64,000 bases of DNA, taken from contig JAUWYR010000008.1 in assembly GCA_030615745.1 (NCBI GenBank), positions 1 to 64,000 on the forward strand, in the 5' to 3' direction. This document shows positions 43,098-48,781 of this stretch, one piece after another. This DNA is from Candidatus Zixiibacteriota bacterium (GTDB taxonomy: Bacteria > Zixibacteria > MSB-5A5 > SM23-73-2). The translations under genes and the position numbers were made by a program. The notes beneath the pieces are model-generated. The model had not been told where the DNA came from. It did not search any database and saw only the letters and a list, made by a program, of their open reading frames with translations. Each line of letters starts with the position of its first letter. The stretch's first letter is position 1.

Positions 43098-43256
43098 ATC
43101 AATTACCTTGTTCGTCACGGAGACCTTCTCCGTGACGAGATTTCAAACCGCAAGTAATTTGTAGGTCAACCATCCCGAAGGCCATTTGGCTCAAATGAGG
43201 TGGTTGACATCTCTTTTTGTCAAGCAGTCCTGCGAACATGCTTGACCTACGAGACT
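43098..43256. repeat. About 150-bp direct repeat, copy 1
   Basis: Clearly related to 43845-44010: both contain ACC-rich starts, GAGATTTCAAxCCGCAAGT, then GGTGGTTGACA, CTCTTTTTGTCAAGCAGTCC and CATGCTTGACCTACGAGACT blocks, with a variable hairpin in the middle. The two copies bracket the gene at 43288 in direct orientation. Confidence 0.85.
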
Positions 43257-43844: not shown

Positions 43845-44010
43845 TTCCAATTTCTTGTTACCCACGAAGACCTTCACTCTGGTGAGATTTCAAGCCGCAA
43901 GTTGTTTTAATCTTTTCATGGTAACGGACAAGGTGTCCGTTACCAACCATGGGTGGTTGACAACTCTTTTTGTCAAGCAGTCCTACGGACATGCTTGACC
44001 TACGAGACTC
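43845..44010. repeat. About 150-bp direct repeat, copy 2
   Basis: Second copy of the repeat at 43098-43256. The internal hairpin differs (GGTAACGGACAAGGTGTCCGTTACC split by a short loop, about 43920-43944) while the flanks are conserved, so the hairpin has changed or been exchanged independently of the rest. Confidence 0.85.
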
Positions 44011-44687: not shown

Positions 44688-46199
44688 TTAAAAACCGAAC
44701 CTTCTTAACCCCATCCTTCTTCCCTCGATTTTCCAGGGGCTTTCTCTAAACTTTTTTTCTTTTAAGGTTTTAATCTTCTTTTTTTCTTTGAAGTCAGTCA
44801 AAGCACAAAGCAAAGCAATCACTTTGTAAAGTTCATCATGGTCAACCGTGATTTCTTTTTTTCCAAACTCCTCCTGAATAAAATGGGTTGATATATCCCC
44901 TTTTATAAATTTCTTGTTATCCATAACCTGGAGGTGAAATGGAATAGTGGTTGCAATTCCGGATATATGATATTCCTGAAGTGCCCTCTTCATTCTACAA
45001 ATAGCCTCATTCCTGGTGCTCCCCCAGGTTAAAAGCTTGGAGATTATAGGGTCGTAATATAAAGAGACTTCACAACCTTCGTAAAGACCTGAATCTACCC
45101 TTATCCCAGGACCTGAGGGCTCAAGATAGGAGCTAACAATTCCTGCAGATGGCAAGAAATTGTTATAAGGGTCCTCAGCATAGATCCTGCACTCAATAGA
45201 CGCACCGCTCCACCTAACATCCTCCTGTTTAAAGCTTAGCTTTTCTCCTGATGCGATCTTCAACTGCTCCTTGACAATATCTATTCCAGTAACAAGCTCG
45301 GTTACAGGATGTTCCACCTGAAGACGGGTATTCGATTCCAAAAAATAGAAGTTTTTATCTTTATCCACTAAAAACTCCATGGTCCCAGCACTAACATAAC
45401 CTGATGCCTTAGCAGCCATAATTGCAGCATCACCCATTCTTTTTCTCATATCCTCATCTACCACAGTTGAAGGGGATTCCTCAATTACTTTTTGATGCCT
45501 TCTCTGAATGGAGCACTCCCTCTCACCTAAATGGATTATGTTCCCAAATTTATCTGCTAAGATTTGAAACTCTATATGTCTTGGCTTCTCCAGGTATTTC
45601 TCAATGTAGATCCTCTCATCCCCGAAAGAGGACTTGGCTTCAAAAGATGCACCTCTGATCGCCTCCTTCATCTGCTTTTCACTTTCCACAATCCTCATCC
45701 CCTTGCCCCCACCGCCTGCTGCTGCTTTGATTAGAACCGGAAAACCGACCTCTTTAGCAAAGGAAATCGCATCATTCTCCGATGCAATCATATTCTCCAT
45801 TCCGGGTACAATCGGCACCCCAGACTCAGAAATTGTCTTCCTTGCCCTCATCTTATCACCTAAAAGCTCAATCGCTTTTGCTGGAGGACCGATAAAAACC
45901 AGACCTTTTTCTTCAACCAGTTTGGCAAATTGAGGATTTTCCGCTAAAAACCCATACCCTGGATGAATAGCCTCAGCATTTGATTTTTCTGCCACGTTAA
46001 TAAGTTTTTCCATAACCAGATAGCTCTGATTGGAAGGGGGAGGACCGATAAAATAAGCCTCATCAGAAAGCCTCACATGTAAAGATTTTCTATCGATCTC
46101 AGAGAAGACCGTAACTGTTTTTATCTCCATCTCCTTGCAAGCTCGGATAACCCTTACCGCAATCTCTCCGCGATTAGCTATGAGAATCTTTTTGAACAT
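44688..46199 (-). CDS. accC: Biotin carboxylase, probably propionyl-CoA carboxylase alpha
   Basis: A 503-aa biotin carboxylase like that at 29819: KKILIANRGEIAVRVIRACKE, HPGYGFLAEN, KAAAGGGGKGMRI, ERECSIQRRHQK and ESNTRLQVEHPVTE. The propionyl-CoA carboxyltransferase gene is at 47231. There is no recognisable ribosome site before the ATG, unlike the duplicate of its first nine codons at 47021-47049, which has one. An HEPN/nucleotidyltransferase pair lies between the two copies, so translation may now depend on coupling with the HEPN gene that ends 18 bases upstream. Confidence 0.93.
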   Translation of the reverse strand: MFKKILIANRGEIAVRVIRACKEMEIKTVTVFSEIDRKSLHVRLSDEAYFIGPPPSNQSYLVMEKLINVAEKSNAEAIHPGYGFLAENPQFAKLVEEKGLVFIGPPAKAIELLGDKMRARKTISESGVPIVPGMENMIASENDAISFAKEVGFPVLIKAAAGGGGKGMRIVESEKQMKEAIRGASFEAKSSFGDERIYIEKYLEKPRHIEFQILADKFGNIIHLGERECSIQRRHQKVIEESPSTVVDEDMRKRMGDAAIMAAKASGYVSAGTMEFLVDKDKNFYFLESNTRLQVEHPVTELVTGIDIVKEQLKIASGEKLSFKQEDVRWSGASIECRIYAEDPYNNFLPSAGIVSSYLEPSGPGIRVDSGLYEGCEVSLYYDPIISKLLTWGSTRNEAICRMKRALQEYHISGIATTIPFHLQVMDNKKFIKGDISTHFIQEEFGKKEITVDHDELYKVIALLCALTDFKEKKKIKTLKEKKFRESPWKIEGRRMGLRRFGF

Positions 46200-46200
46200 A
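46172..46200. repeat. 29-bp perfect direct repeat, copy 1 (within accC start)
   Basis: Identical over 29 of 29 bases to 47021-47049. It covers the ATG and first nine codons of the biotin carboxylase gene plus one base upstream. The flanking bases differ on both sides. Confidence 0.95.
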
Positions 46201-46217
46201 AGATTAGTTTTACGAAG

Positions 46218-46619
46218 TTATATCCAATCTCTTTTTTTTAAATATCTTTCAACTTCTAAGTTAAAACTACTTGCATCTTCTATCTTTTGTAAAGCCTCCT
46301 CTTGAGCAATTTCAGTCAAAGCATTATAATCTGCACTCAATCGGTCTTCAAAAGCTTTAACATATTTTTCATAGAACATAGGATTTACTTTTTTGGTTTT
46401 GAAAAAGTGTTGATTTAAAAGTGCTATCACGCCTGAATGTTTTGAAGTGTCCAACTTTTCGGTCCTCAACAGAGCGCAGGCTGCATAAAACATAGAATAA
46501 TATGCTTTGGATACAGCATCTCGAAATTTTTTATGTCGGATAAGCAATTTGACAGTTTCTAAACACTCTTTACTCAAACTGAAAAGTCTTCTTACTTCTA
46601 ACTTCTTTATTTCTTCCAT
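46218..46619 (-). CDS. HEPN-domain protein (HepT/UPF0332 family)
   Basis: A 133-aa helical protein with the HEPN marks AVSKAYYSMFYAACALLR and KVNPMFYEKYVKAFEDRLSADYN. HEPN proteins of this type are partners of minimal nucleotidyltransferases in toxin-antitoxin-like pairs, usually the RNase component, but a clear RxxxxH active site is not visible here, so it may be a non-nuclease member. It overlaps the nucleotidyltransferase gene by 13 bases. Confidence 0.9.
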   Translation of the reverse strand: MEEIKKLEVRRLFSLSKECLETVKLLIRHKKFRDAVSKAYYSMFYAACALLRTEKLDTSKHSGVIALLNQHFFKTKKVNPMFYEKYVKAFEDRLSADYNALTEIAQEEALQKIEDASSFNLEVERYLKKRDWI

Positions 46620-46963
46620 AGATCAATCCCATCTTTAACTATATTTTCATATAAGCAAGTCTCAGCTTCCTTGTTAAGATTATATTCTTTTTCATCCATA
46701 ACCAGTAAGGATATTAAAAACTTATGATTGTATTTTCCCATCACTTCAAAGGTTTCATCAAAGAATTTATCTCTCATCTCCCACATATCTTTGTCAACAA
46801 TAGCTAAAATGTCAATATCAGAATTCTTATGAGCCTCACCTCTTGCTTTTGAACCATAAAGCTTCAAAAGCAAAAGCCTATCTCCATACTTTTTGACCAA
46901 CCTATTTTTCACTTCTTCGATAGCATCCTTTTCCTGTTTGGATAACCCTTTTATTTTCAACAT
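46607..46963 (-). CDS. Minimal nucleotidyltransferase (MNT) domain protein
   Basis: A 118-aa nucleotidyltransferase with GSKARGEAHKNSDIDILAIV (about 38-57), giving the GSxxRG and DxD metal site. Members AMPylate the HEPN partner and so block it. Transcribed before the HEPN gene with overlap, the classic order of MntA-HepT. The pair is an insertion between two propionyl-CoA carboxylase genes and is flanked by a 29-bp direct repeat. Confidence 0.92.
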   Translation of the reverse strand: MLKIKGLSKQEKDAIEEVKNRLVKKYGDRLLLLKLYGSKARGEAHKNSDIDILAIVDKDMWEMRDKFFDETFEVMGKYNHKFLISLLVMDEKEYNLNKEAETCLYENIVKDGIDLWKK

Positions 46964-47020
46964 ATCCGAGTTTACTTATAGTTACTTAATTTAGTAGTCC
47001 TTTTTTAGCTACGTCCCCTA

Positions 47021-47049
47021 GATTAGCTATGAGAATCTTTTTGAACATA
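47021..47049. repeat. 29-bp perfect direct repeat, copy 2 (orphan accC 5' end)
   Basis: Identical to the start of the biotin carboxylase gene at 46172-46200. On the minus strand TTTAGGATCAAT gives a good ribosome site before its ATG (47048), and the frame reads MFKKILIAN then diverges and stops after about 20 codons. Confidence 0.95.
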
Positions 47050-47114
47050 TTGATCCTAAAGTAAAAAAGTATCTAAAGCACGTATAAGAAGATTACGTCA
47101 CAAAAGCTTCTCTT

Positions 47115-47212
47115 CTATTACCTATCACCTACCACCTATTACCTACTACCTATTACCTACCACCTATCACCTACCACCTATTACCTACCACCTATCACCT
47201 ACCACCTACCAC
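47115..47212. repeat. Heptad repeats CTAYYAC, fourteen exact units
   Basis: Fourteen consecutive seven-base units of the form CTA(T/C)(T/C)AC with only positions 4 and 5 varying. This is the longest and cleanest heptad array in the window. It precedes the stop codon of the carboxyltransferase gene at 47231. Confidence 0.92.
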
Positions 47213-47230
47213 CCACTATCTACTGCCTAT

Positions 47231-48781
47231 CTACAACGGAATATTCCCATGTTTTTTCGGCGGATTCAAATCCTTTTTTGTCTTCAACATCGATAATGCT
47301 CTGATCAATCGCGGTCGAGTGTGTTTTGGCTCTATAACATCGTCAACATATCCGCGTTCAGCAGCGGAGTAGGGATTGGCGAATCTTTCCCTGAACTCCT
47401 GAACTTTTTCATCAGTAACCTTGTCAGAATCAGGAGCCTCTGCTATCTTCTTTTTAAATATTATCTCCACCGCTCCTTTTGGACCCATAACTGCTATCTC
47501 TGCTGTGGGCCAGGCATAGTTAATATCTCCCCTTACATGCTTTGAGTTCATGACATCGTAGGCGCCACCATAAGCTTTTCTGGTAATCACAGTAACCTTG
47601 GGAACTGTCGCCTCGCAAAATGCATATAACAACTTTGCTCCATGTTTGATTAGCCCTCCAAACTCCTGTGCGGTTCCAGGCAGGAAACCAGGAACATCAA
47701 CAAAGACCACTAAGGGGATATTAAAAGCATCGCAGAACCTGACAAACCTCGCTCCTTTAAGTGAGGAATTAATATCCAAGACACCGGCTAAAACAGCTGG
47801 CTGATTTCCAACAATTCCCACAGGTTTTCCTGCCAACCGCGCAAATCCCACTACTATGTTCTGGGCATAATCTTTGTGCACCTCCAGAAAATCACCATCA
47901 TCCACTACCCTTTTTATCACATCTTTAATATCATAGGGCTTGGCCGGGTCATCAGGAACTATGTGATTTAGCTCCTCATCAGCTCTATCAGCAGGGTCTG
48001 AAAAGTCGATCTCCGGGGGGTCCTCCATATTGTTTAGGGGAATAAATCCGAAAAGTTTTCTCACCAGCAAAAGTGTTTCTCCCTCATTCTCACTTACAAA
48101 ATGAGCAACACCAGATTTTGTGGAATGAACTTCTGGCCCGCCTAATTGCTCGAAAGTTACCTCTTCATGAGTAACTGTTTTAACCACGTTCGGTCCGGTA
48201 ACGAACATATAGCCTGTCCCTTTAACCATGAAGATAAAATCTGTTATCGCCGGCGAGTATACAGCTCCACCAGCACAAGGACCTAAAACAACTGAGAGCT
48301 GAGGTATCACACCTGAGGCTAAGGTGTTGCGCAGGAAAATATCAGCATATCCACCTAAGCTAACCACACCCTCTTGAATCCTTGCTCCTCCTGAGTCATT
48401 TAATCCGATTACCGGAGCTCCCACCTTCATCGCCACATCCATTATCTTGCAGATCTTCTCAGCATGAGCCTCAGCTAAAGAACCTCCAAATGTGGTGAAA
48501 TCCTGGGAGAAGATAAAGACCAATCTACCATCTATTGTTCCATAGCCGGTCACAACTCCATCTCCAAATATCCTCTGTTTGTCCAATCCGAATTCCGTGC
48601 ACCTGTGCAAGACGAACATATCGAACTCCTCAAGACTCCCCTCATCCAAAAGTAGATCCAATCTCTCTCTGGCAGTGAGTTTGCCTTTTTTATGTTGAAC
48701 ATCTATCCTTTTTTGTCCCCCTACTAATCTTGCCTCTTTTTGCTTTCTTTTTAAAAGCTCGATCTTCTCCTCAATTGACAT
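47231..48781 (-). CDS. pccB: Propionyl-CoA carboxylase, carboxyltransferase subunit
   Basis: A 516-aa carboxyltransferase, the usual size of Pcc[29 protein letters not shown] at the start, [43 protein letters not shown] and [13 protein letters not shown] are typical of propionyl-CoA carboxylase and the related methylmalonyl-CoA decarboxylase alpha chains. It works with the carrier (44163) and biotin carboxylase (44688). No membrane decarboxylase subunit is in the window, which favours propionyl-CoA carboxylase. Confidence 0.92.

Follow-up and report, generated by a model that had tools for sequence, protein, structure and literature searches.

The locus lies on contig C34 of a MAG of Candidatus Zixiibacteriota (2.28 Mb, 74 contigs), within a window of 64,000 nucleotides, the whole stretch of DNA that was analysed. 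The upstream gene of the operon encodes a pccB-like carboxyltransferase (47231–48781; from the ORF list, Pfam PF01039, E = 3e-201), and accC (44688–46199) encodes an intact biotin carboxylase of 503 amino acids with Pfam domains PF00289, PF02786 and PF02785. Between the two, in the direction of reading, follow a heptamer minisatellite (47115–47219), an accC leader (47065–47118), an orphan copy of the accC 5' end (47021–47049, with its ATG at 47046–47048), a degraded REP-like sequence (46968–47011), the genes for a minimal nucleotidyltransferase (MNT, putative antitoxin, 118 amino acids, 46607–46963) and a HEPN protein (putative toxin, 133 amino acids, 46218–46619), and a spacer of 18 bp (46200–46217) that links the stop codon of HEPN to the start of accC. 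All of these lie on the minus strand, except the minisatellite, to which no strand is assigned. The cassette has a G+C content of 32%, which falls in the lowest 3.5% of windows.

The sequence GATTAGCTATGAGAATCTTTTTGAACATA forms a perfect direct repeat of 29 bp, as had originally been predicted: a search of the window places its copies at 46172–46200, the start of intact accC, and at 47021–47049, the orphan copy, 849 bp from start to start. Described in the original prediction as the first nine codons of accC, the repeat does contain these codons, with one extra base on either side, and equals the reverse complement of a T followed by accC nucleotides 1–28. Chance does not explain it: when 26 accC-type starts of this and related genomes were checked for exact repeats lying upstream, the longest measured 29 bp at this locus and no more than 11 bp at the 25 others. 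The two copies show zero differences over 29 bp, which puts their age below about 0.1 substitutions per site; between this genome and the same-genus relative G001, 44% of accC third positions differ. Our genome-wide repeat and position searches covered 0.84 Mb of this genome, taken as stretches. The exact repeats of 20–55 bp inspected there are mostly palindromic intergenic repeats, paralogues or repeats within proteins, and candidates for comparable gene-start duplications were all rejected as pairs of these kinds. In the window, 21-bp direct repeats of the dispersed intergenic type (CTTGACCTACGA) lie at 43211–43256 and 43964–44009, 753 bp apart.

The MNT and HEPN genes overlap by 13 bp and match PF01909 (E = 1.3e-7) and PF05168 (E = 1.7e-12), respectively, the MNT also matching PF18765. 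The MNT carries the motif GSX10DXD (GSKARGEAHKNSDID); the HEPN has no RX4HXY motif and features RLSADY (Arg-x3-Asp-Tyr) in its place. Class II HEPN/MNT modules are defined by GSX10DXD in the MNT and a HEPN without RX4HXY (PMC7641770). Judged by its families and motifs, with PF05168 beside PF01909, the pair is a module of this class, and it shares with known members, including the solved HEPN/nucleotidyltransferase pair PDB 9xbd, which is its nearest structure, the position of MNT as the first of two overlapping genes as well as a conserved Tyr and a His that lies outside the motif. Such a sequence in place of RX4HXY has been described for Class II modules and for the HEPN-T family, where D often stands instead of H while a different His is kept (PMC7641770, PMC3710099). 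Unlike the known Class II modules, the one described here sits within a carboxylase operon, between pccB and accC. The earlier label of a MntA-HepT-like pair holds only loosely; Class I MntA-HepT modules such as Shewanella SO_3165/SO_3166 are alike in gene order and MNT motif, but their HEPN belongs to PF01934 or PF08780 and carries RX4HXY, in contrast to the PF05168 protein found here. The MNT is assigned by PADLOC to PDC-S09, a candidate defence family. The probable role of the pair is that of a toxin–antitoxin or defence module, in which MNT would modify and silence HEPN; for Class II, PMC7641770 contains no demonstration of HEPN toxicity or of its neutralisation by MNT. The pair is probably transcribed together with the carboxylase operon. 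A promoter scan returned sites no more numerous than in shuffles.

Which of the two copies is the original start of accC? In G001, pccB and accC lie 113 bp apart, and pccB is followed by heptamer minisatellite, leader and accC in this order. Aligned to the 75 bp that precede the orphan copy, the G001 leader scores 22, against a shuffle mean of 10.3 and a level reached by 0 of 1000 dinucleotide shuffles; the alignment stops 16 nt before the ATG of the orphan copy and 17 nt before that of G001. The 75 bp upstream of intact accC gave no alignment with this leader. On the strength of this alignment the orphan copy is the native 5' end of accC, at its original start, because the leader of G001 matches what lies upstream of the orphan and not what lies upstream of the intact copy, and the original prediction was right on this point. 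The cassette consequently parts the native leader and nine codons from the complete accC. The minisatellite is of the TAGGTGA/TAGGTGG type, and the genome contains about 30 further arrays like it. The orphan ATG opens a 20-codon mini-ORF made by the join (MFKKILIANLGDVAKKGLLN, 46986–47048, minus strand), which starts as accC, ends 22 nt before the MNT start and could couple translation into MNT.

A difference in ribosome sites between the two starts had also been predicted and was found: the Shine-Dalgarno match of the orphan copy is weak (AGGA, −3.7 kcal/mol), and intact accC, whose spacer shows no resemblance to the native leader, has none. Reading the missing site as the sign of a rebuilt start is not supported. 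Among 16 relatives examined, 8 have an accC without a Shine-Dalgarno match, and in three of these 8 the junction is empty; since such genes are common among relatives there is no need to assume rebuilt expression.

The pccB–accC junction was compared across all members of the order in which it is readable, together with more distant members of the class. The cassette-free junctions for which the original prediction had suggested looking exist in G001, G002, G004, G005 and G006, with 60–179 bp between the genes. Candidate division Zixibacteria bacterium SM1_73 (G009), from another family (f3) of the same order, carries a homologous MNT–HEPN pair at the same junction, with amino acid identities of 65% for MNT and 46–47% for HEPN; this filled junction features no accC duplication and no att. 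In the more distant class members, the junction holds a methyltransferase, DinB-like or DUF559 gene. Seen across these genomes, the junction is a variable site, and both here and in SM1_73 it holds the same pair. That the pair reached one site twice by chance is unlikely, because no other close relative of the MNT was found, the next best reaching 45% among 146 relatives and 38% among about 85,000 species genomes. Nor were relatives found in viral contigs or plasmids. The original note had suggested a search for MNT–HEPN pairs flanked by duplicated gene starts; of the other MNT loci searched, none has a flanking direct repeat of more than 17 bp. The junctions of G003 and G010 (L036 and L037) hold a Y1 (IS200-like) transposase amid REP palindromes, a RAYT-like arrangement.

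The left flank of the cassette provides a further link to other families. The 57 bp between orphan copy and MNT include the degraded REP, which is homologous to the REP at pccB–accC junctions of family f3 (G009 and G005). In register, the degraded REP agrees with the SM1_73 junction at 29 of 44 positions, and none of the 1.67 million positions in 0.84 Mb of this genome does better; with the REP of G005, whose junction is empty, it agrees at 24 of 36, again the best value, and shuffles were also run. Genomes of families f2 and f3 contain about 5–63 copies of this REP, versus 0–1 per f1 genome. By these matches the cassette is a carrier of intergenic DNA from an f3-type pccB–accC junction, because the REP matches best there and because its family has 0–1 copies in f1.

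We propose, with moderate confidence, that the structure arose by one illegitimate join of the empty and filled alleles of the same junction, in a recombination step that we infer. Two states of the junction exist in the order: an empty one, pccB–leader–accC, and a filled one, pccB–REP–MNT–HEPN–accC, with the pair directly upstream of the accC start. In the lineage of this genome, a single illegitimate (unequal) recombination would have joined the empty allele at accC nucleotide 28 to the filled allele within the REP that precedes MNT. The hybrid would owe its native leader and nine accC codons to the former and its cassette and complete accC to the latter, and the 29-bp repeat would be the accC 5' end common to both parental alleles. 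It would start at the ATG because the empty allele has the leader upstream of this point and the filled allele the cassette, so that the two diverge there. Equivalently, a cassette-bearing fragment could have entered with accC homology guiding one side and an illegitimate join at the other. Such a join would yield exactly this sequence and explain why the orphan copy has the leader, why the REP is truncated, why the second accC is complete and why the repeat has its edge at the ATG; neither a staggered cut nor an integrase would be needed. The empty G001 junction with its homologous leader, the repeat-free pair of SM1_73 at this junction and the f3 REP in the left flank all argue for it. A parental filled allele with the same accC start was not found in any genome, and this parent is one that we infer; no donor tract was detectable in the first 75–90 nt of accC. 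The proposed event resembles homology-facilitated illegitimate recombination (PMC3240628), in which one side is likewise homologous and the other illegitimate, and differs from it in that here it is read from the product only. The motif CTAATCT, common to both junctions, was noted by eye as a possible microhomology, and no reading is drawn from it. The repeat is probably the scar that a recombination left at a variable junction, and not the trace of a novel type of mobile element, a reading favoured because the contig has no integrase, the 25 other starts have no repeat and accC genes without a Shine-Dalgarno match are common. Both the pair and the scar are of known kinds.

Counting against the allele join, insertion of a REP–MNT–HEPN fragment with a small target duplication would yield the identical final sequence. 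A staggered break in accC would have taken up the fragment and left 29 bp duplicated, much as restriction-modification genes insert with long target duplications (PMC3031569, PMC1643837), and accC would stay intact only if the duplication spanned the start codon. We regard this as doubtful, if a serious possibility. It suits the layout of UTR, repeat, cassette, repeat and gene, and has precedent in selfish modules in the same two studies; as in the insertions described by Nobusato 2000 and the Kobayashi group, a small selfish-type module is associated with a direct repeat of target DNA, and an empty site is known in a close relative. However, allele recombination gives the same product, the repeat here being explained by two alleles of one junction, and in another family that junction is filled without a repeat. 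Target duplication also leaves unexplained why the site is shared with the only close relative of the pair, SM1_73, and why the repeat edge lies at most 1 bp from the start codon. An old vertical presence of the pair, with the accC start later copied by templating into the region upstream of MNT, is quite unlikely: the cassette has diverged from that of SM1_73 to a degree comparable with housekeeping genes, which speaks for it, yet the orphan copy stands at native distance from the leader (16 versus 17 nt), which would be an accident of templating.

The original prediction likened the cassette to SXT, that is, to a non-autonomous element integrated site-specifically at the accC 5' end, with the repeat as att core and an integrase acting in trans. 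The perfect repeat rebuilds a gene start, just as SXT-type integration restores the gene start beside the insert, and three Phage_integrase proteins above the family cut-off are encoded elsewhere in the genome. Contig C34, however, has no PF00589 match and no tyrosine recombinase, in agreement with the integrase-free neighbourhood noted originally, and the cassette is smaller than 1 kb. The pair in SM1_73 occupies the junction without repeat or att, and the same absence of repeats at the 25 other accC-type starts and around other MNT loci, and of relatives in viral contigs and plasmids, makes site-specific integration improbable. Its generalisation, in which small HEPN/MNT cassettes move between genomes, insert at gene starts and rebuild the start from a short duplicated core with a recombinase in trans, we consider very improbable: a relative with the same layout and no 29-bp repeat was to speak against it, and SM1_73 is such a relative, while the left flank of the cassette is junction-derived. 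Least credible is an artefact of assembly or strain mixture, as might be suspected in a MAG of 74 contigs. The contig ends overlap by 141 bp, which suggests assembly at k = 141, far above the repeat length, so that each 29-bp copy with its flanks would be read as unique sequence; moreover, accC is intact, and relatives carry homologues of both flanks, arranged as expected.

The locus offers a clean, datable snapshot of how a toxin–antitoxin-like pair may spread among relatives via homologous flanking genes, with empty, filled and hybrid states of a single junction open to base-by-base comparison. It also places a Class II HEPN/MNT pair within a biotin-dependent carboxylase operon. Recombination between the repeats would, as predicted, restore a simple pccB–accC junction of the G001 type, and loss of the pair in this way would leave the host gene intact. 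The filled allele itself may have arrived vertically or by transfer. The MNT shares the same codons with SM1_73 at 62%, versus 43% for accC and pccB (p = 0.003), but this excess stems mainly from one conserved stretch of 33 nt able to form a hairpin, and synonymous similarity is weakened as a proof of transfer once the hairpin is removed (p = 0.08). Within the MNT gene, 46840–46876 form an almost perfect inverted repeat of 14 bp (about −19.7 kcal/mol for 40 nt), with 33 nt identical in SM1_73, which may be an RNA hairpin or an operator.
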